Assembly (NCBI RefSeq): GCF_037991315.1
Contig: NZ_CP150300.1
Coordinates: 6,510,001 to 6,574,000, forward strand
Direction: 5' to 3'
Origin: Paenibacillus sp. FSL H8-0079
Lineage (GTDB): Bacteria > Bacillota > Bacilli > Paenibacillales > Paenibacillaceae
Length of the DNA: 64,000 nt
Position numbers and translations under genes: made by a program. The stretch's first letter is position 1; the number at the start of each line of letters is the position of its first letter. Shown here piece by piece: positions 14,683 to 31,736 of this stretch. The notes under the pieces were generated by a model. It saw only the letters and a list, made by a program, of their open reading frames with translations, did not search any database and was not told the DNA's origin.

Positions 14683-16185
14683 TTATATTGAGCCTAAGTA
14701 ATTATCAATAACTTCCTGGATTTCTTGTTTAGTTAATAAGCCGCCTGGACCTCCGTTTGGACCTCCTCCTAGACCGCCCCCATATTCCGTTTGAAGGTGC
14801 GCTATGATGTCAACTATGTTCAAATCAGTCACTCCGTTTATACCAGCAAGATCGAATACTCTCTTGTCAGGCTCAGATCCATAACCAAATCCAAAATAAT
14901 TATTGATTGCATTAAAATGAATAGTCTCGTCAACAATCGTTTGAATTTGAGTCAATGTTTTCGGAAGTTGTGTTATAGCGTAATTGTCTTGCAATATGCC
15001 CTGGATGCCCACTAGGTACTCATTGGTAACACCGATAACTCCCGCATTAGCAAAAGTCAACTCAGTAACTTCCGTCCATACACGTGAAATCGCTGCAGCA
15101 TTGATCAAATTTAGTGCCGCTTGCTTCGTAATCTCCGCATTGACGATAGCTTGAATTCCTAAAACTGTTCTTGGAGAGCTTCCACCAGATTCGAGTGCAA
15201 CTTTAACCGCTGACACATTGTCTGTCGTTACACCCGTAACACCTGCATTTACAAAAATTTCAATATCAACATTGGTCCATAAACCGGAAGCTGATGCAGC
15301 GTTAATTAAATCTAATGGTGTTGGTGTTGGTGTTGGTGTTGGTGTTGGTGTCGGTGTTGGTGTTGGTGTTGGTGTTGGTGTTGGTGTTGGTGTTGGTGTT
15401 GGTGTTGGTGTTGGTGTTGGTGTTGGTGTTGGTGTTGGTGTTGGTGTTGGTGTTGGTGTTGGTGTTGGTGTTGGTGTTGGTGTTGGTGTTGGTGTTGGTG
15501 TTGGTGTTGGTGTTGGTGTTGGTGTTGGTGTTGGTGTTGGTGTTGGTGTTGGTGTTGGTGTTGGTGTTGGTGTGCTTTCCTCCGTTTTTTTCCCTTCTTC
15601 TTTCCGTTCCATTATCACTTGCTCTGCCTGATAGGCTAAAGACACTAGGTCCGCTCGTGTAGCAGCCTCTTTATAATTGGTTGGGAAATCAACTTTTGCG
15701 TTTATAATAGCTTGAACATAACCTGCAGCCCAATCTGAAACTCCCTCTACTTCTGCGCCCTCTACAGGTTCCATATCAAGTAAGCGTCCAGCTGCGACCG
15801 CGGTCTCCTGGACAGTCATAGCCTTATTAGGGGTAAAGGTTTCATTTCCATTACCTATCATAATGCCAGCCTCTTTTACAGCTGTAATCTCTTCTACGGC
15901 CCAGTGTGTCAGCTCCACATCACTGAAAGGTTTTGTTGTTGGAGTCGTAGTTTCCGTTGCTCCAAGATTTAGAATTAACGCAGCGACTCTAGCAAATTGT
16001 GCACGATTCATATTCTCATTAAGTTTTGCTTCGCCGTTGATTCCGGAGAAAATTCCTTTCGCTACTAACTCATCATATTTTTGCTGCGCAGTACGATCTT
16101 GAGAGTCCGCGGCATTCCCTACTGTTGGAAAGAGTAAAGCTCCCATCAACAAAACCAGTGAAATTCGACTTAACTTCTTTTTCAT
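14683..16185 (-). CDS. SLH-domain surface protein with a long (Thr-Pro)n stalk
   Basis: 500 residues. A Sec signal peptide (cut near GNA at 24-26) is followed by SLH-type repeats (about 35-195, e.g. [40 protein letters not shown]), which bind pyruvylated secondary wall polymer. Then comes a rigid Thr-Pro stalk of about 85 residues encoded by a hexanucleotide tract, and a C-terminal region of three related ~70-residue repeats (INAA...W..V....F.NAGV.GVT..N......), ending in a Gly-rich stretch and a short acidic helix. The C-terminal repeats would be held away from the wall by the stalk; their function is unknown. GGGGGAT precedes the ATG. The promoter carries a box shared with two other genes here. 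Confidence 0.85.
15317..15568. repeat. Hexanucleotide tract (GGTGTT)42
   Basis: Forty-two tandem 6-base units, 41 identical and one GGTGTC variant at 15347, inside the SLH gene (AACACC on the coding strand). Being a multiple of three, unit gain or loss lengthens or shortens the Thr-Pro stalk without frameshift. Such purity suggests recent slippage. Confidence 0.95.
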
Positions 16186-16228: not shown

Positions 16229-16279
16229 ATAGTATCATGTCAAGTGCATTACAAGAGCGAACTTAAAGTTTTCTTTAAG
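16229..16279 (-). promoter_or_regulatory. Promoter with OmpR-type box, SLH gene (shared architecture, copy 1)
   Basis: Box CTTAAAG-N4-CTTTAAG at 16262-16279 (also readable as TTAAAG-N5-TTTAAG), 24 bases, then extended -10 TGATACTAT at 16237-16229 on the minus strand. No good -35 exists, as expected for an activated promoter. The predicted leader is about 37 bases. A further half-site, TTAAAT, lies just upstream at 16283. The same layout recurs at 27241-27291 and 28405-28455. Confidence 0.7.
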
Positions 16280-16468
16280 TTTCTTAAATGGGCTAATCTA
16301 CCACGGTTCACCCTCCAACCCTGTTGTGAAATAAGTCTCTCCTCATTTTAACGCGTGTACCTGATTCTCTCTACATCATCGCACATGATATTTAAGCGCA
16401 ATTCCCCCGCTCTCACCGCTCAACCTCGATGAAATGTCGGTTTGTTCAGCAATGGATGGATTGTTCAC

Positions 16469-16496
16469 TTGAAAAAGTGTATGGCACAACTAAAAT
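16469..16496 (+). promoter_or_regulatory. Candidate promoter of the GH43 gene
   Basis: TTGAAA (16469-16474), 16 bases, TAAAAT (16491-16496); a long inverted repeat begins about 11 bases after it. The remaining 16290-16468 of this 413-base gap shows nothing recognisable. Confidence 0.5.
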
Positions 16497-16507
16497 ATAA
16501 ATGAAAG

Positions 16508-16553
16508 AATCAATTTCATAATACCTTTATTTTAGTGAGTTATGAAATTGATT
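16508..16553. promoter_or_regulatory. 14-base inverted repeat at the 5' end of the GH43 transcript
   Basis: AATCAATTTCATAA (16508-16521) and TTATGAAATTGATT (16540-16553) are perfect complements with an 18-base spacer. Its place right after the predicted -10 fits an operator or a 5'-end mRNA hairpin; it has no U-tract and ends 45 bases before the start. Confidence 0.6.
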
Positions 16554-16598
16554 TGAGAACGCTACATTTAATCTGATATCTTTCGGGAGGTGTATGTA

Positions 16599-18467
16599 AT
16601 GGGTAACAGGAAAGCTATCTGGTTTCTGGTCTTCGCACTCACGTTCACCCTGTTTGGACTTCATCCTGAACGGACAAGTGCAGCAAGTGTCACGATAACC
16701 AACGGTACCGATTGGCTTGATACCGCAGGTAACCCCATCCATGCGAACAGCGGCAACATTCTGCAGGTAGGCTCGACGTATTATCTGTACGGTGAACATG
16801 CCGTGGGTGGCAGGTTCGACAGCGTGAACGTCTACACCTCCACCGATCTGAAGAACTGGACTTTCAGCAACGCCATTCTGACGAAAGATTCCGCAACCGA
16901 GCTGGCCTCCAGCAAGATCGAACGTCCCAAAGTCATCTATAACGCCTCCACCAATCAGTATGTGCTCTGGGCACACTATGAGAATGGTACAGACTACAAC
17001 CTCGGGCGTGTAGCGGTGGCAACAAGCAATACCCCGAATGGCAAATTCACCTATGAGGGCAGCTTCCGCCCGCTGAATTATGAATCCCGTGACATGACCG
17101 TCTTTGTTGATACAGATGGCACAGGTTATCTGGTTACTGCTTCACGCAAAAATGGCGGTGCCAATGATACGATGGCTATTTTTAAAATGAATGCAAGTTA
17201 CACCGGAATACAGTCCTTCGAGGGCTGGCTGTTCGAGAACGCCTATCGTGAAGCGCCTGCTGTTGTGAAAAAAGGAAACCGTTACTACCTCTTCACCTCT
17301 CAAGCCGCTGGCTGGTATCCAAATCAGGGCGCTTATGCTACAGCAACTTCCATGACGGGTCCATGGACTTCGCTTACGCCATATGGCAATCCATCTGCCT
17401 TCGGTTCGCAGATTCACGATATTGCCACGATTACAGGCAGCAACACCACATCCTACATCTACATGGCGGATCGCTGGAATCCGATGAACCTCGGAGAGCA
17501 CAAACATATCTGGCTGCCGCTAACCTTGAATGATACGAACGGAACAGCATCACTGGAGTGGTATACGGCGTGGAATATCGACGCAGCAACAGGCACGGTA
17601 ACACCACCTGCTCTCGTCAACCACGCCCAAGGCAAAACAGCTACCGCTATCTCCACAGCCTCCGGTTCGTCTGCATCCAACGTCAATGATGGCAATTACC
17701 AGACTTCATGGGTGGCTTCCTCCAATAGCTGGTCTGCATGGTGGCAGGTGGACTTCGGCGCATCAAAGACGATCACCGAGATCGACACGTCCTGGTTTAT
17801 GTATAAAGGTTCTGAAGGATACTACAAATACAAAATTGAAATTAGCAACGATGGAGTTAATTACTCCACCTTGGATCGCACCAATAATCTGACCTATGGC
17901 TTCACCACGGATGCCGTGCATTTCACTGCCCGTTATGTACGGATCAATATGGTGAACGCGGTCTTGTGGAATAATCCGGGGAACTGGTACACCCCAACTC
18001 TTCACGAGGTCAAAATGTTGGGTCCTGCAACACCTGAAGCCACAGGTTACAGCCGGTTCAGTTCGCACAACTATCCGGATCGATACATCCGTCATGCCAA
18101 TTACACCGATCGCGTGGATGCCAACGTCTCTCCTGTTCTGGATTCACAGTTCCGCGTCGTACCAGGCCTTGCCAGCTCCACGGGAATTTCACTGGAGTCC
18201 ATCAACTTCCCAGGCTACTTCTTGAAGCGCAACACCAGCAATAAAATTGTACTTGAAGCTTATGCCGACACCTCCGCCTATAAGGGAGATGCTACGTTCC
18301 TAAGCAGTCCAGGTTGGGCTGACAGCACCAAAGTATCCCTTCAATCGTATAGTCAGCCCGGCTATTACATCCGGCATTATGATTACGTGTTACAGCTCGA
18401 TGCCATCAACGCATCTAGCAGCTCGACGGTGAAGAGTGACGCCACGTTTGGGCGAACCAATTTCTAA
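16599..18467 (+). CDS. Secreted GH43 (subfamily 24-like) exo-beta-1,3-galactanase with CBM32 and AbfB domains
   Basis: 622 residues from ATG at 16599; a longer GTG start at 16590 overlaps the GGGAGG ribosome site, so the ATG (8-base spacing) is preferred. After a Sec signal peptide comes a GH43 five-bladed propeller (about 35-335) with GNPIHANSGNIL, IERPKVIYN, NYESRDMTVFVDTDG and REAPAVVKKGNRYYLFTS, closely matching bacterial exo-beta-1,3-galactanases of subfamily 24. These lack the usual N-terminal Asp base. Next is an F5/8C (CBM32) module (about 340-475), then an AbfB/CBM42-like beta-trefoil (about 480-620). Likely substrate: the beta-1,3-galactan backbone of plant arabinogalactan, with AbfB binding arabinose branches. 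It acts outside the cell. No terminator stands out. Confidence 0.85.
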   Translation: MGNRKAIWFLVFALTFTLFGLHPERTSAASVTITNGTDWLDTAGNPIHANSGNILQVGSTYYLYGEHAVGGRFDSVNVYTSTDLKNWTFSNAILTKDSATELASSKIERPKVIYNASTNQYVLWAHYENGTDYNLGRVAVATSNTPNGKFTYEGSFRPLNYESRDMTVFVDTDGTGYLVTASRKNGGANDTMAIFKMNASYTGIQSFEGWLFENAYREAPAVVKKGNRYYLFTSQAAGWYPNQGAYATATSMTGPWTSLTPYGNPSAFGSQIHDIATITGSNTTSYIYMADRWNPMNLGEHKHIWLPLTLNDTNGTASLEWYTAWNIDAATGTVTPPALVNHAQGKTATAISTASGSSASNVNDGNYQTSWVASSNSWSAWWQVDFGASKTITEIDTSWFMYKGSEGYYKYKIEISNDGVNYSTLDRTNNLTYGFTTDAVHFTARYVRINMVNAVLWNNPGNWYTPTLHEVKMLGPATPEATGYSRFSSHNYPDRYIRHANYTDRVDANVSPVLDSQFRVVPGLASSTGISLESINFPGYFLKRNTSNKIVLEAYADTSAYKGDATFLSSPGWADSTKVSLQSYSQPGYYIRHYDYVLQLDAINASSSSTVKSDATFGRTNF

Positions 18468-18599
18468 GCAAAATAATTGGAGTTGAGGATGAGCCATCTA
18501 CATCTACAATTCGAGGAAAGGCCGTTTTTTCAGGAGTCACAACTGAAGAAGCGTTTTTTTCTGCTGCACGGTTTCAGATATAGATGACGTAACCCCATC

Positions 18600-19211
18600 T
18601 CAGACTGAAAATGCAGGTTTCATTAGAGCGAAATCGCCAGCCAGACTGGCTAGTGGCTGCCAGCTCTCTATCGCTATTTTATAATGACTGGCATATGCCT
18701 CTGCATCCACCCGTACATGCTTTACTTTTCCAAGAACCACATGATCTGTACCCACTTCAATGATACGATCCAGTGTAAGTTCAAAAGCAATCGGAGATTC
18801 CAGCACGGAAGGTACATCTACACGTATGCCTGCCTTGGGTGTAACCCCCGCCAGTTGAAATTCATCTTCGTCCGATGCTACATCTGCTGACGAACGCTGC
18901 ATGGACGCTGCAAGTACAGCGGGAACTACATTGATCACAAACTCTCCCGTCTCTCGTATATTGACGAGTGTATCCTTCACGGTACCTTGCCTCTCACCTA
19001 CACCAGGTCCAATGGATAGGAGCAGAGTCGCCGGATTGCGTGAAGCAACGGTAAAAAAACTGAATGGAGCGAGGTTAAGCACACCCTCCTTGCTTCGCGT
19101 AGAGACCCAAGCAATGGGCCGCGGCACCACGGAACCCGTCATTAATTTGTACATTTCATCCACGGTGATATCACCTGTTGCAAATGCATATGTATTTTTT
19201 TCTTCCAACAT
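18600..19211 (-). CDS. Flavin reductase family protein (FMN-binding split barrel)
   Basis: 203 residues from ATG at 19211, which has AGAAAGGTTG ahead; the longer frame from 19274 has no ribosome site. The fold signature is MTGSVVPRPIAWVSTRSKEGVLNLAPFSFFTVASRNPATLLLSIG (FMN-binding region, about 20-63), with DHVVLGKVKHVRVD near the C-terminus. Family members reduce or bind FMN and often partner with monooxygenases; no partner is adjacent. It is divergent from an HxlR regulator with a perfect palindrome between them, the usual arrangement of an HxlR-controlled, stress- or aldehyde-induced reductase. Confidence 0.85.
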   Translation of the reverse strand: MLEEKNTYAFATGDITVDEMYKLMTGSVVPRPIAWVSTRSKEGVLNLAPFSFFTVASRNPATLLLSIGPGVGERQGTVKDTLVNIRETGEFVINVVPAVLAASMQRSSADVASDEDEFQLAGVTPKAGIRVDVPSVLESPIAFELTLDRIIEVGTDHVVLGKVKHVRVDAEAYASHYKIAIESWQPLASLAGDFALMKPAFSV

Positions 19212-19315
19212 ACTCAACCTTTCTGAAGTGCCCCTGAGCAGGTCCTTCGGTTTACAACGCTCTGTGGGACACATATAGTTGGTATAAGAATATACACTTG
19301 TTCACCACAAAAAAA

Positions 19316-19337
19316 GTACGCACTTTGAAGTGCGTAC
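19316..19337. promoter_or_regulatory. Palindromic HxlR operator in the divergent promoter region
   Basis: GTACGCACTT-TG-AAGTGCGTAC is a perfect 10-2-10 palindrome between the flavin reductase and hxlR-type genes. It starts 20 bases upstream of the hxlR GTG and abuts a possible minus-strand promoter (TTGTGG, 17 bases, TTATAC). A run of seven T follows on the minus strand, so it could also fold as a terminator there. A related degenerate copy is at 31665-31721. Confidence 0.7.
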
Positions 19338-19357
19338 CTGCATAAAGGAGCTTATTC

Positions 19358-19687
19358 GTGATGGGTAATCCGAGCACAGTCCCAATGGAAACACTAACTC
19401 CCTTCGACTACACCCTGTCCATTATCGGCGGAAAGTGGAAGATGAAGATCATGTATCAACTTGCCTTTCATGGAGTCACACGTTACGGCGAACTCAAAAG
19501 ACGTGTATCCGGGATCACGTACAAGGTATTAACCTCTCAACTGAACGATTTGGAACGTGAAGGTGTGATAAAACGAGTGGAGTATTCGTTAACCCCACGA
19601 GGGAGAAGTCTTATACCCATTCTGGAAGAAATCTGCAAGTGGGGTGTGCATCATGTACCGGAGATACAATCGCTGCATGAATTATAG
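19358..19687 (+). CDS. HxlR-family transcriptional regulator
   Basis: 109 residues, the usual HxlR length. The winged helix is clear: FDYTLSIIGGKWKMKIMYQLAFHGVTRYGELKRRVSGITYKVLTSQLNDLEREGVIKRVEYSLTPRG, where GKWK and ITxKVLTxQLxxLExxGxIxR are family signatures. No cysteine is present near the N-terminus, so a YodB/HypR-type thiol switch is unlikely. AAAGGAG lies 7 bases before GTG at 19358. The degenerate copy of this leader at 31665-31721 has ATG at the same place, supporting the GTG over the ATG three bases later. Probably represses itself and the flavin reductase gene through the palindrome. Confidence 0.88.
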   Translation: MMGNPSTVPMETLTPFDYTLSIIGGKWKMKIMYQLAFHGVTRYGELKRRVSGITYKVLTSQLNDLEREGVIKRVEYSLTPRGRSLIPILEEICKWGVHHVPEIQSLHEL

Positions 19688-19704
19688 TGAATATGGATGA
19701 TATG

Positions 19705-19743
19705 CAAAAAGAACAGCCTACTCCCATGGGAGCAGACTGTTCT
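19705..19743. terminator. Bidirectional terminator between hxlR-type gene and giant SLH gene
   Basis: AGAACAG...CTGTTCT outer stem with inner CTCCC-AT-GGGAG; TTTTTG follows on the minus strand, serving the 19767-26873 gene. Confidence 0.8.
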
Positions 19744-19766
19744 GCCAATCTAATCTATTAAGGATA

Positions 19767-22700
19767 TTACAAGTTCGGATCATACTTCATCATATTCATT
19801 TTACCTTGTTTCTTATAACTTACATAAACGTGGTCCGTGCTGTCTATGAAAATATCTAGCTCCAGAGCGTCATCATTGGAGAATCCGGCAGACCCTACCG
19901 GTCTCCAACCCATATTCTCATATTTCATCACAGTCACCTTGTTGCCATATGCAGCATCTCGATAAGCAACGTAAGGCGTGCCTTGGCTGTCAAAGGCCAT
20001 ATCCATGCTTCCTCCTTTAGACGAACCAACCGAGAATCCGGGAGTGCTCACCTTCTCCCATGCTGTATCTTCTGACGGAATGGAGTGCGGATATTTCCAC
20101 ATTTCAACAACGTTGGAGCTGCTAAGATAGATCATATAAGGTACGCCAGACGGATCAAGCGCGGATGCAGCAACCATATTTGCAGATGCTGGATATGAAT
20201 ATTGTTTCGGATCTAATAATTCCCAAAATTTATCCTGTCCAGATGAGCTAGCTGGTAAGCTATATCCTAATGCCGCATAACTACTGGATGAAACAGATGC
20301 GTAAGATGGAGCAAACAAATACATGCCGTTGTTTGGTAACGGTGCGAGGAATGCTCTTAGACCTGCGTATGCCTGTACCCTCGCTTCTTGTACCCGTCCC
20401 CTATCTTTATAAAACCTCCATGACATGAGCATTGATGGTTCTGCAGCATTACCGACCAAAACACCTCTAAACATCAGAAAAGGATTATCATCCTTATCAA
20501 AGGTAATGACGAAGCTATCGTAAACTCTATCCACTTTTCTTACATTCGGTCTGACACTCGTTCCGTCTTTCCAATCGAAATCATAAATAGTTACTGGTCT
20601 CCACCACTTATGTTCATCATTGTAATTCTTAAAGCTTACTTGACCTGAACTGTTCTTATAACCAACATAAATCTTATCCTTACTGTCTATTCCAAGCGAT
20701 ATAGCTGAGCTCCCCAATCCTCCCGCTTTTTCAAGATCGCTTTGATTGCCAACGGGCTGCCACGTGCCTCCCTTATATTGCACCACAGATACTTCGTTAT
20801 TGTCCTTTATATAAGCCATGTAAGGCGTCCCTTGACTGTCGAAGACGATATTGGACTTGCTATTCAATTCCAGCTCGCCACCCACCTGCAGCCACGATGT
20901 CATGGTCCACTTCGCGTAAAGCCTTATGTCTGCCGTCACTGGCGTCCCGAAGTCGTAGACGATCTCCAGATCACGATCGCTGTACCAACCATCGAATCGA
21001 TAGCCCGCCCATTTCAGTGGAGCAGGTTCCACAGCATTGCCGTTAGGAGCCACCACCTGACTCGCTACGGCTGTCCCACCGTTACTCTCGAAGCTGACCA
21101 TGTGGCTGTCAAATGTCCACTTCGCGTAAAGTGTGCGGTTACCCGTCACCGATGTCGTGAAGCTATACGCTTCATTCAGTCCAATATCGCTATACCAACC
21201 GTTGAATGTGTACCCATCCCTCGTCGGTACAGTAGGCTCAATGGCAGTGCTGCCACTTTCCATCGTCTGGTCAGCCACCGATGATCCGCCGTTACTGTTG
21301 AAACTCACTGTGTAGATTGCCGTCCATTTCGCGTACAACGTGAGGTTAGTCATCACTGGTGTCATGAAGCTGTAGGCTTCATTCAGACCAGCTTGACTAT
21401 ACCAACCATTAAATACATGTCCTGCGCGCGTCGGTGCGTCAGGAATTGTTGCCGTGTCACCTTCACTCACGGACTGACTACTCACCGACGATCCATTGTT
21501 ACTGTTAAAGCTCACTGTGTAGCTGTTCTTTGTCCACTTCGCGTACAGCATCACATTCGCCATTACACCTTCCGTGAAACCATAAGGTGTCGTCAATTCG
21601 CTATCACTATACCAGCCATCGAACGTGTATCCTTCCAGCATCGGTGCACCAGGAGCAGCAGCCACGGCACCTTCATTCACCGTCTGTTCTGTGACCACTG
21701 ATCCGCCGTTACTCTCAAAAGTTACAGTATACGTATTCGGTACATAAACCGTCCACTTCGCGTACAATGTCAGGTCTCCCGTTACCACCATAGTAGTGAA
21801 ATTGTAGGCGTTCATTAATTCGATATCGCTGTACCAGCCGCTAAACACATAGCCTTCCCGCTCTGGGGCGACAGGTGCCATAGCCTTGGTCCCTTCATTC
21901 ACTGTTTGGGCATCTACTACCGACCCTTCATTACTCTCGAAGCTTATTGTGTAAGGGATCAGCCACTTCGCATGTAGTGTGAGATCCCCCGTTATCGCCG
22001 CAGAGAAGTCGTAAGCATTCGTCAACGTGTTATCACTATACCAGCCGCCAAATACATAACCATCTCTCATCGGTTCAATCGGTGTACTAATCGTAGCACC
22101 ATATCCCACAGTCTGAGCCGTCGCTTCGGACCCGCCGTAAGTGTCAAAGGTTACGGTATAGTTGTTAATTGCCCACTGCGCGGTAAATTGAACATCTTCC
22201 GCAGGCATGGTAGTCGGAAGCGTTGGCGACCAACCCGTAAAGCTATATCCCTGCCATGTTGGCGTGCCTAGACGGAGCAACATTGTCGCTCCGAATGGAA
22301 CGATATCCGTTGTACTTGTTTGTCCAGAACCATTGTAATCAACAGTCATTTGGTACGCCTCGCGCTTATAGTACACCTTCAGCACCGTTGTACCGTTACC
22401 TTCAATCAGAGCTGTCAGTACCGCTCCCGGAACACTGTCATCTCGTACAAAGCCCGCATAGGATTTAGGCTTGGCATCTGCCACATTCGCTTCTGTATTG
22501 GTAGCTCCACGATACGATTCCGTATCCACAACCGTATAAGTGTCACTTCCGATATTTTGCAGTAAGTGTACAACCTGATAAGGCGTACCCTCTCTCCCCG
22601 TCCACTTCGCTGTATACGTAGTGTCCTCAATCGGCATCGTACTTGGAACTTCTGGCGACCAACCGGCAAACGTATATCCCTGCCTTGTCGGCACAGGTAA

Positions 22701-25700
22701 ACGAGCAGCAATGTTCTTGCCAACGGCTTCCGTTAGCGAGATTTGGGGCGCACCGGCATAACCCCCAGCGAAGGTCATCTTTCGATTCTCCGGATAGTAA
22801 TTAACTCTTACGACTGTCGAGCCGTCTCCCTTGATTAATACGCCGCTTACCGTTCCGGTCGCATAGCCCTGCTCCTTAAACCTGTCGGAGCTGATTCGAA
22901 TCTCTGTGTCCGTTGTTCCAGTCCTATTTTCAGTATCCACAGGCGGAGCCTGTATTCTGCTGTTCGGGTCTAGCACATAATACTCAACCGTATACGGCGT
23001 ATTCTTGTTCGCAATCCAGTGCGCGTACAGTTTTCGATCCTCCGCAGCCATTCGGTTCGGAATCGTGATCTTCGTGCCGCCGGAAGCGGCCGTATACCAG
23101 CCGTCAAAGGTGTATCCTGGATATACCGGGGTGACCACGCTGATTGGCGCGTTATAAGGAGCCGCCACAACCTGGGTCACTCCGCTGTTCTGTGGATCCA
23201 GCTGAAGGATGTAGTCACCCACTCTGGCAAGCCAGCTTAACTGAATCGTACGCTTGAGTGGCTCGGACATGAACGACGCCGGTGCCCCCTTCCAGGTGAT
23301 AACCAGATTGCCATCACTCACCTGAATGTTCTTGTCCACCACTTCAATCATCCCGTTTGCTGCGTCATACTTGAAGTTTGGATTGTCCACCTGAATATCG
23401 AAATTCGAGCGATCATACGCCTGTTCATCCGTATCGCCTGTCTTCAAATCAAAGGTATTCATCGTGACCCACAACTCCGGTACAGCGATGGATGACGCAG
23501 AACCCGCCATGTTCACTTTGAGCGACTTATCCTGAGGATAGGCGAAGTCGTAGACGTTCTGTTCTTCTCCAATCGTATACAGTGGCCACTCTTCATCTAC
23601 CAGCTCTACGCCGCCGGAAAGCCCTCCATCACCTAATTGAGCGCCGAGTTCGACCTCCAAATAGATGCCAATCTCGACGAACAGGGCACCTAAAGACTTC
23701 GTGGTCTTCACCCCGCTAATATTTTTCAATTGATAATAGAAGTAGCCCCACAGATTCACATACACACCGGGTTCTACAGCAAGCCCGATACTATTCAACT
23801 TGACGCTTCCAATCCCCGCTTTGACCTCCATATGAATACCAGCTCGTAAACCGATCGTCCCCATCACATAGAAGGTAAATTGGTAATCTCCGTCTCCCGG
23901 CAAGCTGACCGTATTGCTCGAACCACTGAAACTCAATACGCGCAAGCTAACCGAGTAGCGCTTGGCCATCTTATAGTAGAAATCTGCCCCCACCGTCAGG
24001 TTCACCTGGGCGCTGACCACAAACTCCGCTTCAAATTTGACTTCCACAATACCTAAAGCCACACGTACGCTCTTTTCAAAGAGTTCCTTCTTGATTAACG
24101 GAACCCACTCCGTGTCTTGCTCCAACATCTCTTGATACTTTTCCTTCAACGATTCCGCATCTACGGCAGTATCCTGCACACCCGCCATTACCGCTTTAAT
24201 CTGTGTCGCAATGTCCTGAACCTTTCCCAACCTGCCAGCGTTCTTCTCGCCCACCCAGTCATTCACTGCATCATTTAACTTATCGTGTTCAACGAGAGCT
24301 ATCTCTGCCGTGATGTTCATCCCGGTATAGCTATAAGCATCCAGATTCGCCGTAATTACATAATCATCAATGCTGTACCAGTAAGGAATCCCCCACTTTT
24401 TCAGCCAGTGCCCTTTCATATCCCCATTGATACCGAGGTCCAGGCTCATCTCCTGCACGAATGTACCCGTCATATGGATGACAAGATCGCTGTCTTCATT
24501 GATATTGACAACAATATCGGCACCCACTTGTAACGTAACGCTTACGCCTGAGGTTCGGCCGTCAATATTCTTCAGCCTCGTGCCGAGTGAAGCAACAACG
24601 GTCAGCTTCTCCACACTTACCCGGCTCCCTTTACCGGACGCTAGGGAGGACTGAGCCTTGATCTGCTGAATTTCCTTTGTCTCCATGGCGATGTCAGACA
24701 GATAATCCGCGGCTTCGTTGACGAATCCGCTGTCTCTCGCTTGCTGCTCAATTTGCTCTTCGAGCTGTGCAATCTGTTCTTCCGACAACAGATCATCGCC
24801 GTCAATTGCTTGCTTCTGATAGATGTTGAAGGCATTTTCAATATCTTCAATGGTGGCATCGGTATACGTAATTACGTCCATCTCCGCCTCAGGCGTAATC
24901 GACGTAATACGTCCATAACCCATGATCTCAATACCTTCTTGATCGAATTGTCCATCATAAAAACCAATAAAGTCGCCCACATCAACAGTGGTCAGCTCAT
25001 CCAAACCGAAGGGCTTGTACAGGCTGTCACTGTAGTTCATGGAAGTGTGCTCAACCGTGATGGAATGGTTATTGGGAATTCCATCCTTATCTGCTTCTAT
25101 GCTCACCGGTAGAACATCCGGCTTGAACAACACTTGATTGGCATCTGCGTGATCATAAGTGTAGACACTTCCATCTACCGCCGTGATCTGGACATAGGCC
25201 ACATCACCATCGTCTTCACCAGTCGTTTCGACTGTGCGCAGTTCGGGACTAACTCCCTCATAGATGGCTACGGTATCACCGACTTGAATCACCGTGCCAG
25301 TGCTTCCGGTGTACTTGAACGTTCCACTACTCGCATTCACTTCGGCGAGTGCATTTTCGCCGCCTACCGTCGTAGTAACGACTGAAATCGCGGGCGAATC
25401 GACATCTGCTCCATTTATCACCATATCCGTGACATCCGTGAACGGAATGTAGATCATGTTCGGATTGAGTGGAATATTCATGACTTCTTTTTTAGCAACG
25501 CTAAATACATAAATACTTGTCGTCGCGTCTTGGCCTTGGAAGGACAAACTGTCATCCGTCAACGTAAGTTGATATGTGTTACCTTCAACGAACTTGCCGT
25601 TTTCGGCTGCTGACGATACCGTGAAAACTCCGTTCCCGCCAGAGACGGTAACCCCTTCGAATTCGGGATTCGCCGTATCCACGAAGGTCATCCTCTCTTT

Positions 25701-26873
25701 GACCTGGGATTCCGTTAGACTGCCTGATGAATCCTGCACCTTAATGGTGAAGTTCGGCGCGACATCCAGTACCGAATAGCTTGGTACGCTCTGTACGGCA
25801 CGATCTATGCTATCGGTATACTTCGCATACAACTTCGTATCAGCAGTCAAGGTAGTGCCACTTGCGAAGATAAGTGAAAGATCACTATCCGCAAACCAAC
25901 CTTGGAATATATATCCTTCTTTTGTTGGAGCAGGTAGATTATTTAGCACCTGGCCTTTTCGTACCGTCTGTGCAGTGACTGGCGTACCTCCGTTGCTCTC
26001 GAAGGTGAGTGTGTATGTAGCCTCACCGGTGTTACCGCCTCCGCTGCCTCCAGACGTTCCGCCGCCACTATTACCACCTGCTGATGGCGTTGGTGTCGGT
26101 GTTGGTGTCGGTGTTGGTGTTGGAGTAGGCGTCACCGGCGTTTGATTCTGATTTTTCCACGCCTCTACAACCGCGTTGTTGCGCATGAAGAGAACCGCTG
26201 CTTCCGCGCGAGTCGCTTGTGCACGCGGATTGAAGTTCCCCTTTTCGTCCCCGGTGAACACACCGGCTTGCCACAGCTTGATGACCGCGTCAGCCGCCCA
26301 AGACGATACATCCCCGAGATCGCCCGGCTCTGTCGTGACCGGATTCTCGGTCTGATAAGGGATCTGTTCGCTTTCGAAATACCGCAACGTCATCGTCGCC
26401 ATTTGCTCCCGAGATACGGTAGCATCCGGCGAATATTTCCGATCCCCCGTGCCATCGGTAATTCCTTTCTTAACCGCCCATTCGACATATGGCGCATACC
26501 AGCTGCCCGCCTGTACATCGGCAAAGCTCGAAGTGGAGTACGCCCCGGCATCGACTCCGGCCATCCGTCCAAGTGCCGTCACATACATGGCACGTGTCAT
26601 TGTCCCCTTAGGAGAGAAGCTACTCGCGTTCGTTCCGCTGAATATGCCCTTCTCCTGCACATGGACGACTGCATCATAGAACCAGTCGGTGGGACTCACA
26701 TCCTGGAATCCACTGGATGTGGTTACTTTTGTCATCTGCATCGGCAGTTCAGCCGCTACTGCCGATTGCGCTGGTAATAGGGGCACGGCAGAAACTACTA
26801 AGCTGATCACCAGCATCCACATCAGGATCTGCCGGCTCACCTTCCATCCCTGTCTTACTTTCTTCACTTTCAT
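19767..26873 (-). CDS. Giant SLH-anchored surface protein with ten InlB-type B repeats
   Basis: 2368 residues. Order: signal peptide (about 1-41); three SLH domains (about 56-235); a Thr-Pro linker and Gly/Ser stretch; one B repeat (about 283-352); a ~870-residue middle region of mixed beta strands with a coiled-coil-like segment (about 690-790), not recognised; nine more B repeats (about 1228-1990) with two MucBP-like segments between the early ones; and a C-terminal ~375 residues of propeller-like repeats (FDSQGTPYMAYIKDNNEVSVVQYK, AFDSQGTPYVAYRDAAYGNKVTVMKY). B repeats (PF09479, Y.V.F..NGG...) build long stalks on Listeria-like adhesins. Likely a wall-bound adhesin or matrix protein. Its promoter shares the OmpR-type box and has a ~360-base leader. 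Confidence 0.88.
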   Translation of the reverse strand: MKVKKVRQGWKVSRQILMWMLVISLVVSAVPLLPAQSAVAAELPMQMTKVTTSSGFQDVSPTDWFYDAVVHVQEKGIFSGTNASSFSPKGTMTRAMYVTALGRMAGVDAGAYSTSSFADVQAGSWYAPYVEWAVKKGITDGTGDRKYSPDATVSREQMATMTLRYFESEQIPYQTENPVTTEPGDLGDVSSWAADAVIKLWQAGVFTGDEKGNFNPRAQATRAEAAVLFMRNNAVVEAWKNQNQTPVTPTPTPTPTPTPTPTPSAGGNSGGGTSGGSGGGNTGEATYTLTFESNGGTPVTAQTVRKGQVLNNLPAPTKEGYIFQGWFADSDLSLIFASGTTLTADTKLYAKYTDSIDRAVQSVPSYSVLDVAPNFTIKVQDSSGSLTESQVKERMTFVDTANPEFEGVTVSGGNGVFTVSSAAENGKFVEGNTYQLTLTDDSLSFQGQDATTSIYVFSVAKKEVMNIPLNPNMIYIPFTDVTDMVINGADVDSPAISVVTTTVGGENALAEVNASSGTFKYTGSTGTVIQVGDTVAIYEGVSPELRTVETTGEDDGDVAYVQITAVDGSVYTYDHADANQVLFKPDVLPVSIEADKDGIPNNHSITVEHTSMNYSDSLYKPFGLDELTTVDVGDFIGFYDGQFDQEGIEIMGYGRITSITPEAEMDVITYTDATIEDIENAFNIYQKQAIDGDDLLSEEQIAQLEEQIEQQARDSGFVNEAADYLSDIAMETKEIQQIKAQSSLASGKGSRVSVEKLTVVASLGTRLKNIDGRTSGVSVTLQVGADIVVNINEDSDLVIHMTGTFVQEMSLDLGINGDMKGHWLKKWGIPYWYSIDDYVITANLDAYSYTGMNITAEIALVEHDKLNDAVNDWVGEKNAGRLGKVQDIATQIKAVMAGVQDTAVDAESLKEKYQEMLEQDTEWVPLIKKELFEKSVRVALGIVEVKFEAEFVVSAQVNLTVGADFYYKMAKRYSVSLRVLSFSGSSNTVSLPGDGDYQFTFYVMGTIGLRAGIHMEVKAGIGSVKLNSIGLAVEPGVYVNLWGYFYYQLKNISGVKTTKSLGALFVEIGIYLEVELGAQLGDGGLSGGVELVDEEWPLYTIGEEQNVYDFAYPQDKSLKVNMAGSASSIAVPELWVTMNTFDLKTGDTDEQAYDRSNFDIQVDNPNFKYDAANGMIEVVDKNIQVSDGNLVITWKGAPASFMSEPLKRTIQLSWLARVGDYILQLDPQNSGVTQVVAAPYNAPISVVTPVYPGYTFDGWYTAASGGTKITIPNRMAAEDRKLYAHWIANKNTPYTVEYYVLDPNSRIQAPPVDTENRTGTTDTEIRISSDRFKEQGYATGTVSGVLIKGDGSTVVRVNYYPENRKMTFAGGYAGAPQISLTEAVGKNIAARLPVPTRQGYTFAGWSPEVPSTMPIEDTTYTAKWTGREGTPYQVVHLLQNIGSDTYTVVDTESYRGATNTEANVADAKPKSYAGFVRDDSVPGAVLTALIEGNGTTVLKVYYKREAYQMTVDYNGSGQTSTTDIVPFGATMLLRLGTPTWQGYSFTGWSPTLPTTMPAEDVQFTAQWAINNYTVTFDTYGGSEATAQTVGYGATISTPIEPMRDGYVFGGWYSDNTLTNAYDFSAAITGDLTLHAKWLIPYTISFESNEGSVVDAQTVNEGTKAMAPVAPEREGYVFSGWYSDIELMNAYNFTTMVVTGDLTLYAKWTVYVPNTYTVTFESNGGSVVTEQTVNEGAVAAAPGAPMLEGYTFDGWYSDSELTTPYGFTEGVMANVMLYAKWTKNSYTVSFNSNNGSSVSSQSVSEGDTATIPDAPTRAGHVFNGWYSQAGLNEAYSFMTPVMTNLTLYAKWTAIYTVSFNSNGGSSVADQTMESGSTAIEPTVPTRDGYTFNGWYSDIGLNEAYSFTTSVTGNRTLYAKWTFDSHMVSFESNGGTAVASQVVAPNGNAVEPAPLKWAGYRFDGWYSDRDLEIVYDFGTPVTADIRLYAKWTMTSWLQVGGELELNSKSNIVFDSQGTPYMAYIKDNNEVSVVQYKGGTWQPVGNQSDLEKAGGLGSSAISLGIDSKDKIYVGYKNSSGQVSFKNYNDEHKWWRPVTIYDFDWKDGTSVRPNVRKVDRVYDSFVITFDKDDNPFLMFRGVLVGNAAEPSMLMSWRFYKDRGRVQEARVQAYAGLRAFLAPLPNNGMYLFAPSYASVSSSSYAALGYSLPASSSGQDKFWELLDPKQYSYPASANMVAASALDPSGVPYMIYLSSSNVVEMWKYPHSIPSEDTAWEKVSTPGFSVGSSKGGSMDMAFDSQGTPYVAYRDAAYGNKVTVMKYENMGWRPVGSAGFSNDDALELDIFIDSTDHVYVSYKKQGKMNMMKYDPNL
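20905..23200 (-). repeat. Array of nine protein-level B repeats (InlB/Flg_new type)
   Basis: Nine copies of a ~65-75-residue unit ending (L/F)YAKW, each with a GY.F.GWYSD core; the last six are most alike, suggesting recent duplication, and the first three, with MucBP-like inserts, are diverged. A tenth copy lies apart at about 25810-26030. Confidence 0.85.
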
Positions 26874-27240
26874 TCATCCCTTCTATGTATAGATCAAACT
26901 AAAAAAGACCGTCCAAAATTGGTTTCTAATCAAGCTAATCAACAAAGCCAGACTAATAGCGGATACCACTGACCCAGATCGGGATCATTGGTTTCCTGCG
27001 AGTCAGTTCGCTCGGCACGTGGAGATCAAGCGAGGAAAAACTTCACATACAGAAATGGCATTGTTCTAGCTGCGGCGTTCAGAACATCAACCTCAGCTCA
27101 AACATCCGACTGGAGAGATCCGACTGCTTTAAGGTACGATAATGCCAACTTTACAGATTGAATTCGTTCACCGACCTTTCTGATCAGTCGCAGTCGAATT
27201 GTGACACCGACACAGCAAATTATGTCGTTTTTTCTTCCGT
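26874..27240 (-). other. Long leader region of the giant SLH gene
   Basis: About 360 bases between the predicted transcription start (about 27234) and the ATG. It holds a direct repeat ATCCGACTG (about 27106 and 27120). I found no recognisable riboswitch core and no credible small gene. Confidence 0.4.
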
Positions 27241-27291
27241 ATTTTATCATGCGAGATAGGGGCGCTTGTGAATTATAAAGAAAACTTTAAG
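27241..27291 (-). promoter_or_regulatory. Promoter with OmpR-type box, giant SLH gene (copy 2)
   Basis: Box CTTAAAG-N4-CTTTATA on the minus strand (27291-27274), exactly 24 bases, then extended -10 TGATAAAAT (27249-27241). It matches copy 3 also outside the box (shared ATGTCGTT and ATTTTATCATG blocks), so the two promoters look homologous. Confidence 0.7.
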
Positions 27292-27326
27292 TATGCAACT
27301 ACTCGCAAGTGAGAACATCAATTACA

Positions 27327-27367
27327 TCAATAAATAGCGGCGTAGGGAAGGTAACTCCCACACCACT
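27327..27367. terminator. Imperfect hairpin after the MinD-like gene
   Basis: AAATAG-GG-GT-GGGA against TCCCAC-CC-CTATTTTT around an AGGTAAC loop; resembles the terminator at 14639-14676 with substitutions. It lies about 80 bases beyond the MinD-like stop codon. Confidence 0.5.
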
Positions 27368-27445
27368 ATTTTTCATGAATTCTTAAGCTAGTCTGCAATC
27401 CATTCCAGATGATTCTCTTCTCAACGATTCATCTACCAGAATCAA

Positions 27446-28255
27446 CTATAACGAACTGCTCTTCCCCCAACGCAGTCTTTGAGGAAGTGAAAAAACACTA
27501 ATATGCCTCTTGGGTTTCAATGCGATGAAAGGCTCCTGCTGATTCTTCGCCACATTGTGGGCGATATGCCTGAAGCGCAGCCCGCTTTCGAACTCGGGAT
27601 TAAGCGCAATCGGGATGCCCTTATGTACGGAACGTATAATTTCTACATCGGCATGGATCACGCCAATCACACCGATATTGAGAATATCGATAATATCCTG
27701 CATCTTTACCGTTGCCGAACGGGCTTCCTGTCCGTCGGCCATATTAATGATGAGCTGTGGCGGAGCCGGAATCATATCTTCTAATAATCCGATTACGCGA
27801 TCCGCGTCCTGAAGCGATGTACGATGAGGCGTAGTGACGACAATAGCCTCATCTGCCGCTAAAGATGTATTCCAGAATCCATTTTCAATGCCTGCTGGCG
27901 AATCGATCAGCACATAATCATAACCCTGGGCTATTTGCTGCACAACCTTGCGAAAAACTTGTGGATCATCGTGATGCACCGCGTCGTTACTACAGGAGAT
28001 AAAGGACAAGGTACTGATTCGCTTATCTTTGACGATCACTTGATGTAAAGCACATCGACCCGTCAGAAAATCGGAAATATGATAGTTTACCCTATTGCTC
28101 AAACCAAGCGGAATATCCAGATTTCTCAATCCAAAATCAGCGTCAATCAGGCAAACGCTACTCCCCGATAAGGCAAGGGCAGCCCCGAGATTAGCTGTGA
28201 CCGTTGTCTTGCCAACTCCACCTTTCCCTGATGTAATACATATAACTCGTGCCAT
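27446..28255 (-). CDS. MinD-like P-loop ATPase, without MinC or MinE partner
   Basis: 269 residues from ATG at 28255 (AAGGAAG 8 bases ahead; the longer frame starts at a TTG). It is a deviant-Walker-A ATPase: SGKGGVGKTT (9-18, both lysines), the CLIDADFGLRNLDIPLGLSNR block, YDYVLIDSPAGIENGF (Walker B) and AIVVTTPHRTSLQDADRVIGLLED all follow MinD. The C-terminus (ISVFSLPQRLRWGK) could form a short amphipathic membrane-binding helix as in MinD. No minC, minE, chemotaxis or flagellar gene is near, so it is probably a paralogue that positions something else at the membrane. Its promoter carries the same box as the two SLH genes, and the sensor kinase operon lies just upstream on the same strand. 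Confidence 0.85.
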   Translation of the reverse strand: MARVICITSGKGGVGKTTVTANLGAALALSGSSVCLIDADFGLRNLDIPLGLSNRVNYHISDFLTGRCALHQVIVKDKRISTLSFISCSNDAVHHDDPQVFRKVVQQIAQGYDYVLIDSPAGIENGFWNTSLAADEAIVVTTPHRTSLQDADRVIGLLEDMIPAPPQLIINMADGQEARSATVKMQDIIDILNIGVIGVIHADVEIIRSVHKGIPIALNPEFESGLRFRHIAHNVAKNQQEPFIALKPKRHISVFSLPQRLRWGKSSSL

Positions 28256-28404
28256 CGGAGCCACTTCCTTCTTCAAGTACTAATGCGGGACAGCAAGACA
28301 ACCATTTCTTCACGTATTATCGTTTGATCCGGCTCGAATGAACGTCCTCTTAGCTAATAATCAGTTACAATTTGATGAAATATGTCGTTATATCGACCAA
28401 TGTG

Positions 28405-28455
28405 ATTTTATCATGATGGATTATCCTACTTGAGAAACCTAAAGAAAACTTTAAA
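28405..28455 (-). promoter_or_regulatory. Promoter with OmpR-type box, MinD-like gene (copy 3)
   Basis: Box TTTAAAG-N4-CTTTAGG on the minus strand (28455-28438), exactly 24 bases, then extended -10 TGATAAAAT (28413-28405). Predicted leader about 140 bases. The gap between genes (28256-28662) otherwise holds only the response-regulator terminator. Confidence 0.7.
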
Positions 28456-28662: not shown

Positions 28663-29361
28663 TCATGCTCGTGATGCACTGGTAGCAACCAGCATATACC
28701 CGCTCCCCCGAACCGTAATGATTCGCTCAGGATCGGCAGGGTTGGACTCGATTTTTTTGCGTAAATTACTGATGTGTACAGCGACCGTTCTCGTATCCTC
28801 CAGACTTTCCATTCCCCAGATGATTTGGAACAACGTATCGACACTGATGACACAATTCACGTTTTGTGCCATATAGGACAGCAGACTGAACTCTTTTTTC
28901 GATAAAAAGATAGGTTTACTCCCCATGTTGACGGACTGCGTATAGAAATCCAGTGTCAAACCCGGTAACTCTAGCAGTTGTTCCCTCCTGCCTGTCGACA
29001 CTCTGCGAAGGTGAGCCTTGATCTTGGCCATGAGCACTCCCGGACTGAACGGCTTGGTCACATAATCGTCACCACCATAGGATAATGCGCTAATTTTCAC
29101 TTCGTCTTCCTCCTGGCTACTCAGAAACATGATCGGCGCACTGGTCAAGTTACGCGCATTTCTGCACCAATCAATGCCATTTTCATTAGCCAGCAATACA
29201 TCCAATACAATCAAATCGGGCTCAAACGATGTAAGCAGCTCCATCGCTTCTGTCCCGCTATGACTATAGGTGGAAATAAACCCCTCCCGTTCGCAATACA
29301 CCTGCACAATCTCGCATATATGAGGATCATCATCAACGATCATGATTTTGTGCGTGTCCAT
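28663..29361 (-). CDS. OmpR/PhoB-family response regulator
   Basis: 232 residues from ATG at 29361, preceded by AAAGGGG; the longer frame uses a TTG inside the kinase gene. Receiver domain (1-120) with acidic pocket D10-D12, phospho-acceptor D54 (LIVLDVLL) and K103-type lysine in DYVTKPF; OmpR winged helix (about 130-230) with ISVDTLFQIIWGM and VHISNLRKKIE...ITVRGSGYML. It starts 4 bases after the kinase stop, so the two are translated together. Candidate regulator of the three box-bearing promoters at 16.2, 27.3 and 28.4 kb: OmpR-class proteins bind 6-base direct repeats spaced by 5, which is what those boxes contain. Confidence 0.92.
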   Translation of the reverse strand: MDTHKIMIVDDDPHICEIVQVYCEREGFISTYSHSGTEAMELLTSFEPDLIVLDVLLANENGIDWCRNARNLTSAPIMFLSSQEEDEVKISALSYGGDDYVTKPFSPGVLMAKIKAHLRRVSTGRREQLLELPGLTLDFYTQSVNMGSKPIFLSKKEFSLLSYMAQNVNCVISVDTLFQIIWGMESLEDTRTVAVHISNLRKKIESNPADPERIITVRGSGYMLVATSASRA

Positions 29362-29365
29362 CTCA

Positions 29366-31507
29366 TCACCCCTTTCCTTCAATCACCGTACAAGGAAACG
29401 TTACATAGAATGTTGCCCCCATCTTGCCGTCGCTCTCCGCTCGAACCATGCCTCCGTGCGCTTGTACGATTTCCCTGCAAATTGCCAGCCCCAGTCCACT
29501 GCCCTCTATGCCCATTCCCGGCCGATCATATCTGTAATTACGTTCGAAGATTTGCTCAAGCTGCTCCGGAGGAATCCCCATGCCAGAATCCTGTATGCTA
29601 ATGACTGCATGGGGAGCATGATTCATCACTTCCACAACTAATGCAATACGCACCAGTCCCCCGCTGGAGGTGAACTTCATGGCGTTGGATACTAGATTAA
29701 ATAAGGCCTGTTCTACTCTTTTCGCATCCATCTCGACAACAAGCGCATTAGATCGTCTATCCTCGGTATCTCCGATATCCAGTATGAAGTCTAATCCTGC
29801 GTCGCGCACTACCAACTCATATTGTTCAAAAAAACCATGCAAGAAAGGAATCATCTGAACCGGCTCCATTCGGTACGAGACCTGTCCGGTCTCCAAATGC
29901 GACAAGAAGGACAACTCCTCGATCATACGGTTAATCCTTATCGTGTTCTCCCGGATGTACTTCAGATATTGTTCATTGCGTTCCGGCTTAACCCTGTCCT
30001 GTATAGCTTCTACATATCCAAGCATGCTGGACAACGGCATACGCAGATCATGCGTAATATAAGCAAGTAGCTTCTTCCTCCCTTGCTCGGAGTGAAGCAG
30101 TCGGTCATACGAGGCTTGGAGATCATCATGCACTGAAGATAAAGCCTGTGTTCGCTCCTGAACGGTCTGTTCCAGATTCATATTCATTTCAATCAGCTTG
30201 TCATTAACGTCCTGTAATTCACGTGTAATTCTCTCTTCGTTCGATGCCGTCCTCGTAGATCGCGAAGACAGCAAAATCAGCTGCGCGATCGTAAATATCA
30301 ATAAGCCAAGCGGAGATGTATTTCCAACTAGCGACCATCCGTTAAAATATAAAAAATCGTTGACAACCGTGACCAAAGTAACCACCGACACCAGCAGGAA
30401 GATCAACGCTCCCTCCATACGTCGCACAGCCGCCTGAACCAGTCCGATCATCAGATAAATCATATGTAGAACTACCATCACACCGATGACCAGCAAAAAT
30501 TTTGTATATATAATTGCAGGGGTTAGCACTACAAGGATACAGAATGCACCAGTTACCATCCGGGTGCCAAGACGAAACCATCGCGACACATAATTCGGAA
30601 AAATACAATCAAAATACATGGTGATGATATAACCACTGACACAAAGAATTAGATATTCGATCTTGAACTGCAATTCCCAAGGAAAATGAGGCAACCATTG
30701 TGTAAAGATAAGCTCGCCGTTGAACAAGGATCGAATACCAAGCAGTACAGTAAACAGGCCAAAATATAACGGAGCTCTATCCTTACGTCGCAGCATGAAC
30801 AACAGCAGATTATACAAACCGATCACTAGCAAACTTGCCGTGATGAACATATCCCTGGCAAGATTCAGATTGGTCTTGGTCGTTAGTACGTCACTGCCAC
30901 CCAGCTCGATATCCTTGGTAATGCCGCCCCGATGATGTTGGAAGTTGGATACTTGCATGACCAGCTCTAACGTATCGTTTTTAGGCTGAAAATACACCAG
31001 CTTTGTTTCCAATTGCGGGGTCATGCTGTGCTTGTCCTGACCAACCTCACCAACTTCTGCCAGCAGCTCGCCATTGACCCATAATTTGTACGCATTAAAA
31101 ATGCTAGACAGCCGCAGAGCAAGCATCTCATCTCGATCCTGCTCGCTTAGATGAATGACCAGTCCAAAGGTTACATAGCCTGTACCGCTCAGCCGCTGAC
31201 CTTCTAACGGGTAGCCCCGCCAGGAGCTTGGGATGCTAATCCAGTGGTTCTGATTTCCTTCCCTTGCCGAACGAACCCGCATATCCTCAGGCGACAGCAG
31301 TTCTTGCCAATAGAACGCCCACTTCCCTGTTAATTTTTGCGGATTCGTACTAAGTTGCGCCTGCGTTAAATCCAGAACACCTTCTTCACTTTGGAACTTA
31401 GGAGAGTCCTGCTCAGAGAGGACGACATAGCCTGCAACCAAACCAATAACAGCAGCAATGATATACAACCAAACCTTACGAGAACCGACTCGGAGAATCT
31501 CCCTCAT
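29366..31507 (-). CDS. 7TMR-DISM sensor histidine kinase
   Basis: 713 residues: one N-terminal membrane segment (15-32); an extracellular beta-sandwich (about 40-205; galactose-binding-like 7TMR-DISMED, e.g. WAFYWQELLSPED, WISIPSSWRGYP, YVTFGLVIHL); seven membrane helices (about 215-405); a coiled coil (about 415-475); HisKA with THDLRMP (His near 486); and HATPase_c with NLVSNAMKF, DSGMGIP and EGSGLGLAICREIV. The external fold suggests sensing of a carbohydrate or other soluble ligand. It forms an operon with the following OmpR-type regulator. No OmpR-type box was found in its own upstream region, so autoregulation is not evident. Confidence 0.9.
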   Translation of the reverse strand: MREILRVGSRKVWLYIIAAVIGLVAGYVVLSEQDSPKFQSEEGVLDLTQAQLSTNPQKLTGKWAFYWQELLSPEDMRVRSAREGNQNHWISIPSSWRGYPLEGQRLSGTGYVTFGLVIHLSEQDRDEMLALRLSSIFNAYKLWVNGELLAEVGEVGQDKHSMTPQLETKLVYFQPKNDTLELVMQVSNFQHHRGGITKDIELGGSDVLTTKTNLNLARDMFITASLLVIGLYNLLLFMLRRKDRAPLYFGLFTVLLGIRSLFNGELIFTQWLPHFPWELQFKIEYLILCVSGYIITMYFDCIFPNYVSRWFRLGTRMVTGAFCILVVLTPAIIYTKFLLVIGVMVVLHMIYLMIGLVQAAVRRMEGALIFLLVSVVTLVTVVNDFLYFNGWSLVGNTSPLGLLIFTIAQLILLSSRSTRTASNEERITRELQDVNDKLIEMNMNLEQTVQERTQALSSVHDDLQASYDRLLHSEQGRKKLLAYITHDLRMPLSSMLGYVEAIQDRVKPERNEQYLKYIRENTIRINRMIEELSFLSHLETGQVSYRMEPVQMIPFLHGFFEQYELVVRDAGLDFILDIGDTEDRRSNALVVEMDAKRVEQALFNLVSNAMKFTSSGGLVRIALVVEVMNHAPHAVISIQDSGMGIPPEQLEQIFERNYRYDRPGMGIEGSGLGLAICREIVQAHGGMVRAESDGKMGATFYVTFPCTVIEGKG

Positions 31508-31664: not shown

Positions 31665-31736
31665 ACACCAAAAAAAGCACACACTATGAAGTGCGTACTG
31701 ATATGAAGGAGCTTAATCATGACTACAGTGAATTAT
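31665..31736 (+). pseudogene. Degenerate copy of the hxlR-type leader and start, now probably a terminator
   Basis: 31665-31721 aligns at roughly 80% with 19303-19360, covering an A-run, the palindrome (right arm AAGTGCGTAC intact, left arm decayed), GAAGGAGCTTAATC and an ATG in place of the GTG. Behind the ATG the frame stops after six codons (MTTVNY). On the minus strand the decayed palindrome still folds (GTACGCACT with AGTGTGTGC) and runs into TTTTTTT, ending the lipoprotein gene at 31723. Confidence 0.6.

Follow-up and report, generated by a model that had tools for sequence, protein, structure and literature searches.

Activators of the PhoB/OmpR family can replace the -35 element at their promoters, regulators of the OmpR family usually bind direct repeats arranged in tandem with a period of about 11 bp, and streptococcal CiaR is a regulator of the OmpR type. 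In the streptococcal CiaRH regulon, the CiaR box is NTTAAG-N5-TTTAAG (PMC3091779). Here, we describe three box-bearing promoters and an adjacent two-component system in Paenibacillus sp. FSL H8-0079, all located in the 64,000-nucleotide stretch from 6510001 to 6574000 of its 6.7-Mb one-contig genome (NZ_CP150300.1; below called the window, in whose numbering positions are given unless they have seven digits). Both systems have a two-component regulator, an AT-rich box of the TTAAG type, a conserved -10 element, and a limited set of promoters, whereas the box described here is better represented by a dyad with a TTTT centre, the kinase is of the 7TMR-DISM type, and the putative targets are SLH and other surface proteins. 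Compared with PhoB/OmpR activators, the locus has the same receiver and winged helix, a site immediately before the -35 region, and an extended -10 element; however, the putative operator resembles a dyad more than a clear tandem 11-bp repeat, and pieces of the promoter are found beside unrelated flanks. SlhA of Paenibacillus alvei and SplA of Paenibacillus larvae are likewise SLH or S-layer surface proteins of this genus, but the available portions of their accounts mention neither such an operator nor two-component control. Nothing on this motif or regulon was found in the open-licence literature and, as far as that literature shows, the control of SLH surface proteins in Paenibacillaceae is largely open.

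Comparison with related genomes makes it highly probable that the adjacent two-component system uses the three sites as operators, at which its regulator would bind and activate a small surface regulon. In the proposed mechanism, the 7TMR-DISM histidine kinase (29366 to 31507), the presumed cognate sensor, would phosphorylate the OmpR/PhoB-type response regulator (28663 to 29361), which would bind, probably as a dimer, to the near-palindromic AACNTAAAG-TTTT-CTTTANGTT and recruit sigma-A RNA polymerase to promoters lacking a -35 element. Here, the output would comprise a pair of SLH proteins and a second ATPase of the MinD type, and in relatives SLH proteins above all, together with FliD-like, HD-domain, and csrA/giant-flagellin genes and additional copies of the regulator. 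This would supply, across dozens of genomes, a defined regulator with its operator and a set of targets, and a strong pairing of regulator and operator drawn from sequence data only.

Three matching promoters

An earlier note on this stretch had placed three boxes on the minus strand, each exactly 24 bases from a TGATANNAT element, and both the boxes and the distance were found as described. Read on the minus strand, the boxes are CTTAAAGAAAACTTTAAG (16279 to 16262), CTTAAAGTTTTCTTTATA (27291 to 27274), and TTTAAAGTTTTCTTTAGG (28455 to 28438), and the -10 elements, each directly preceded by CA, are TGATACTAT at site 1 (16229 to 16237) and TGATAAAAT at sites 2 and 3 (27241 to 27249 and 28405 to 28413). 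We take these to be extended -10 elements of the sigma-A type. The promoters also lack a good -35 element, as the note had remarked, since by eye any hexamer 17 bases before the -10 matches TTGACA at no more than two of its six positions. The strict form TTAAAG-N5-TTTAAG and the perfect CTTAAAG-N4-CTTTAAG are present at site 1 only; the second half-sites are TTTATA at site 2 and TTTAGG at site 3. The CiaR-type NTTAAG-N5-TTTAAG fits no site of the window exactly, site 1 being one base off in the first half and sites 2 and 3 deviating also in the second half.

All three genes behind these promoters are on the minus strand. Box 1, in which the operator is reversed, precedes the gene for a 500-aa SLH-domain protein with a long Thr-Pro linker (14683 to 16185). 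Box 2, in canonical orientation, precedes the gene for a 2,368-aa giant SLH protein with Listeria-Bacteroides repeats (19767 to 26873), with a leader of ~360 nucleotides (nt) up to the ATG, and box 3, also canonical, precedes the gene for a MinD-family ATPase that is the second paralog in this genome (27446 to 28276, starting at TTG 28276 or ATG 28255).

A genome-wide search for TTAAAGN4CTTTA-N24-CATGATANNAT with up to three mismatches returned three exact matches, none with one or two mismatches, and one with three, while the same pattern read backwards, used as a control, returned no match. The three-mismatch match, at 2280542, has no likely -10 element and was set aside as chance. The possibility raised in the note, that the pattern might be common throughout the genome, is thus answered by its presence at three places only. 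The core TTAAAGTTTTCTTTA, with up to one mismatch, occurs at eight places in the genome, namely, the three window sites and five others. In a promoter profile built from 63 sites of relatives, site 1 (plus strand), site 2, and site 3 scored 46.4, 59.9, and 65.4 bits, respectively, the last two values being partly circular, since sites 2 and 3 have close orthologs in the training set. The five other near-copies scored -3.1 to -40.7 bits and were dismissed as chance, and random sequence with a similar composition (20 Mb) reached at most -1.8 bits. The genome itself was searched by pattern only, and weaker sites may exist. The three sites are genuine and exceed by far what chance would give.

Co-occurrence of the box with one regulator

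The regulator has a Response_reg receiver (82.4 bits) and a Trans_reg_C winged helix (84.8 bits), both above cut-off; its open reading frame (ORF) begins at TTG 29382, and the position of ATG 29361 is the ORF start in several relatives. The kinase combines 7TMR-DISM_7TM (73.7 bits), HisKA (56.0 bits), and HATPase_c (89.7 bits) in one chain, again above the cut-offs; both genes are on the minus strand. An AlphaFold model of the kinase based on 16 sequences was too poor for reading the sensor domain (mean predicted local distance difference test [pLDDT] score, 51.9) and was not used.

Orthologs of the regulator were accepted at E values up to 1e-70, and boxes were accepted with up to two mismatches in the genus and up to three in the order. 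Among 75 genomes of the genus, including that of FSL H8-0079, 19 have the box, 18 have the regulator, and 17 have both. (The matches in two further genomes of the genus, G072 and G014, have no TTTT core and were regarded as chance.) In the order, 392 genomes, 68 of them from the genus of FSL H8-0079, gave 72 with the box, 65 with the regulator, 57 with both, and 312 with neither (Fisher's exact test, p of ~2e-45, a value that overstates significance, since related genomes are not independent and no correction for ancestry was applied). Without that genus, the counts were 40 for both, 13 for the box only, 7 for the regulator only, and 264 for neither; with boxes restricted to two mismatches across the order, they were 52, 4, 13, and 323, respectively. 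Eleven of the 15 box-only genomes have three-mismatch matches only. In the eight regulator-only genomes, a relaxed pattern matched in six, at eight places of which about five were convincing by eye, compared to four places for the reversed control. The regulator is present in 12 of 49 genera and is 75 to 100% identical among the matches listed; a search of 72,556 plasmid records gave no match to it at 1e-60.

Some of the boxes are remote from the regulator gene. The 57 genomes with both contain 116 boxes, of which 74 have a regulator copy within 10 kb and 7 have one at 10 to 50 kb; a further 13 are more than 50 kb away on the contig of the regulator, and 22 are on other contigs, some contigs being short drafts. 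In ten of these genomes all boxes are unlinked, with none closer than 50 kb to a regulator on the same contig. Examples of the distances are 572 to 574 kb in G077 and 1.7 Mb in G024. The remote and other-contig boxes therefore argue for action in trans. The regulator very probably controls the three box-preceded genes. The view of the earlier note that sensor, regulator, ATPase, and two surface proteins form one module also gains from the co-occurrence in 57 of 392 genomes of the order and 17 of 75 of the genus, including unlinked cases, and from the frequent SLH domains downstream of the box (see below), which together point to such a module.

A different DNA-binding protein, inherited together with the kinase-regulator pair, might bind the box, the pair being its genomic companion. 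A single regulator was compared with the distribution of the box, and three genomes have the box but not the regulator, both of which leave room for such a binder. We nevertheless regard it as quite improbable, given that boxes stand in front of regulator copies themselves, that even unlinked boxes track the regulator, and that the regulator is so well conserved. A regulator copy is the first ORF after the box in L114, L164, and L166 and, by eye, in three loci of other genomes (L234, L241, and L242). Regulator copies are also repeated near boxes, with or without the kinase, at L114:4137-7866, L127:1690-7484, and L163:3-6712, and G204 has five regulator matches.

Several points weigh against assigning the boxes to this regulator, in addition to the relatedness of the genomes. 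G098, G108, and G149 have convincing boxes without a regulator at 1e-70, and G076 and G162 carry the regulator without a box even when the relaxed pattern is used. The kinase-regulator operon of the window is not preceded by a box. The genome has 43 SLH-bearing frames (104 matches; frames counted by hand), and the box covers 2 of them, leaving 41 without it. Finally, in the sites of relatives, a dyad axis (0.83) outscores the best direct period, the 11 bp of the OmpR-family type (0.71), both scores being partly built in by the search pattern. The third SLH gene of the window (59145 to 62945; match at 6569196 to 6569714) is among those without a box, and the regulon would therefore be selective.

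Architecture of the proposed operator and its reversal at site 1

The pattern TTAAAGWWWWCTTTA-N26-TGNTANNAT was sought in 84,980 species, each represented by a single genome, and gave 84 stretches, 62 of them named as Bacillales, mostly Paenibacillus and Cohnella, with single stretches from Ammoniphilus, Lederbergia, Peribacillus, Sporosarcina, and Domibacillus. The 22 stretches not named as Bacillales, among which L106, L118, L172, and L173 are named only as Bacillota or Bacilli, were set aside and serve as a built-in control: the TTTT centre is present in 63 of 66 Bacillales sites and in 4 of the 22 remaining stretches. Similarly, 28 of the 62 stretches from Bacillales, but none of the 22 others, contain a regulator and/or kinase ortholog within their length of up to 8 kb.

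For the profile, 100 distinct sites were reduced to 70 with less than 80% identity and then to 63 with at most two mismatches. The consensus of the 70 nonredundant sites is cgAaCTTAAAGTTTTCTTTA.gtTTCataaatgggctaAtCtaccATGaTAaaATa, in which the columns of the search pattern are conserved by construction, as sites were required to start with TTAAAG and to fit the pattern. Columns beyond it are also conserved, namely, AAC before and GTT and TTC after, and those that complete the dyad outside the pattern are A in 88% of sites, three bases before the core, and T in 90% at the mirror position. The operator resembles a dyad, AACNTAAAG-TTTT-CTTTANGTT, more closely than it does a direct repeat, and the OmpR-type repeat box proposed in the note is retained in one part and revised in the other: an OmpR-type regulator does track the box across genomes, but the dyad describes the box better.

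Between the 15-base core and the -10 element, 87 sites have 26 bases and 3 have 25, a count that is biased because most loci were retrieved with a pattern that required a spacing of 26; 16 further sites have no strict -10 match, although by eye several show a variant -10 element at that spacing. In six loci retrieved by MinD similarity instead, three promoters of the giant SLH gene have a spacing of 26 and the other three one of 25. The operator ends ~22 bases upstream of the extended -10 element, and its centre is ~48 bases before the predicted start. Activation fits better than repression, because the operator stops immediately before the -35 position in promoters that have no -35 element and whose -10 is of the extended sigma-A type. 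A reading by an alternative sigma factor, with the box as a -35-like element, would also agree with the missing sigma-A -35 and with the constant distance in the three window sites. However, TGATAAAAT fits the consensus of the extended -10 of sigma-A, a box 24 bases from that element is too distant for a -35, and the box is reversed at site 1, which together make this reading scarcely credible.

The reversal at site 1 is seen from its centre, which is AAAA on the minus strand, as in the same operator turned round; the canonical TTAAAGTTTTCTTTAAGTTTC...GGGCTAATCTACCA is on the plus strand. On the minus strand, the whole promoter scores -1.4 bits and its -10 part 8.7 bits, whereas on the plus strand the box part scores 42.5 bits and the -10 part -21.6 bits. 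The minus-strand arrangement is kept in L126, which is from the same species, and in L140, where the equivalent of the -10 element is TGTTACTAT. The simplest reading is that site 1 is one operator working backwards, which would be possible because the operator is nearly a palindrome. Alternatively, the operator could serve, or have served, the plus-strand GH43/AbfB gene (16599 to 18467), instead of or besides the Thr-Pro SLH gene. The canonical orientation, at 16263 on the plus strand, does point at that gene, which starts 286 bases past the 50-base promoter pattern, but it is the minus strand that has the better -10 part, and L126 and L140 retain the minus-strand arrangement while the other side diverges beyond CTACCA. 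We consider this rather unlikely and treat the GH43 gene as a lesser candidate for the target of site 1, with the backward-working operator remaining the preferred reading. In the window (16290 to 16310), L126, and L140, the homology ends exactly at CTACCA, which precedes the -10 element in canonical promoters, in the manner of a recombination boundary.

Downstream genes and possible horizontal spread

The scan of relatives proposed in the note, with a list of the genes behind each box, was carried out for the Bacillales sites. The first downstream protein was searched for domains at 55 of the 66 sites; the remaining 11 were excluded from the count, as no suitable ORF was present within 900 bases, which in three cases reflects missing sequence. 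SLH domains were found in 29 of the 55 proteins, CHB_HEX_C_1 in 12, Flg_new in 10, MinD/ParA in 5, a response regulator in 3, and HD_5 in 1; for comparison, the entire FSL H8-0079 genome has 43 frames with SLH. Further boxes in other genomes stand before a FliD-like gene or a small gene ahead of one (partly by eye).

At three loci, a pair of csrA-like genes and an unusually long flagellin-like gene (787 to over 1,067 residues) follow the box promoter on the same strand (L117:3096-7445, L125:3896-7573, and L152:3374-8000); Pfam confirmation is limited to one csrA and the flagellin in L117. At the DNA level, parts of the csrA/flagellin loci are shared at 88 to 98% identity among Bacillaceae genera and Paenibacillus, and directly after the box in L117 and L150 there is an apparent SLH-gene remnant (by eye). 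In addition, a clostripain-family peptidase with an SLH domain follows a variant box at 4062 in L161 (L161:4062-6258), just upstream of a box-preceded gene of an ~2,270-residue surface-protein family, also seen in L181.

The box-preceded ATPase of the window scores 254.2 bits against TIGR01968 (MinD; equivalog cut-off, 212.9 bits), and a function in membrane positioning may be supposed. It is 42% identical to the housekeeping MinD, the other paralog, which adjoins a MinC-like ORF (identified by eye). The box-preceded paralog is conserved at 86 to 95% in 6 of 58 other genomes, and the box is kept before it in all six.

The history of the regulator was compared with that of the housekeeping MinD in 18 chosen genomes. 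The regulators of G060, G095, G010, and G082, from the same genus, are 81 to 83% identical to the FSL H8-0079 copy, and their MinD proteins are 98 to 99% identical, whereas in G252, from another family, the regulator is 89% and MinD 74% identical. Of 53 pairs of promoters that are at least 82% identical over 87 bases, 14 show no detectable similarity in either flank. The two histories disagree, and these data suggest horizontal spread of the regulator, and perhaps also of promoter pieces, although old paralogs offer an alternative for the same-genus mismatch. This would be a possible case of promoters being exchanged in addition to genes.

These same observations, namely, the promoter pairs without flank similarity and the discordant regulator history, would also be expected of a conserved, mobile, unregulated sigma-A promoter whose likeness reflects recent spread and that contains no operator. 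Such a promoter would be expected neither to lack a -35 element nor to be tied to one regulator, unlinked cases included, and the dyad columns outside the search pattern are conserved (the conservation of the core and the -10 comes in part from how the sites were fetched); we consider it very improbable and retain the reading of the boxes as operators of the two-component system. On a more tentative level, and with somewhat less than even confidence, the data may reflect a horizontally travelling surface-identity regulon of Bacillales, in which a kinase-regulator pair and portable promoter cassettes of ~87 bp, with an operator usable in either direction, would join SLH adhesins, giant flagellin/csrA genes, FliD-like caps, and a MinD-type ATPase in one switch that re-dresses the surface and the filaments together.

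The leader of the giant SLH gene (26874 to 27240) has large indels among relatives. An Rfam search of the whole window gave nothing at the gathering score, and no known leader RNA therefore accounts for it. Upstream of the kinase gene, the window encodes a 197-aa putative lipoprotein (31723 to 32316) with no Pfam or NCBIfam match, which ORFs in L143, L149, and L159 resemble by eye.

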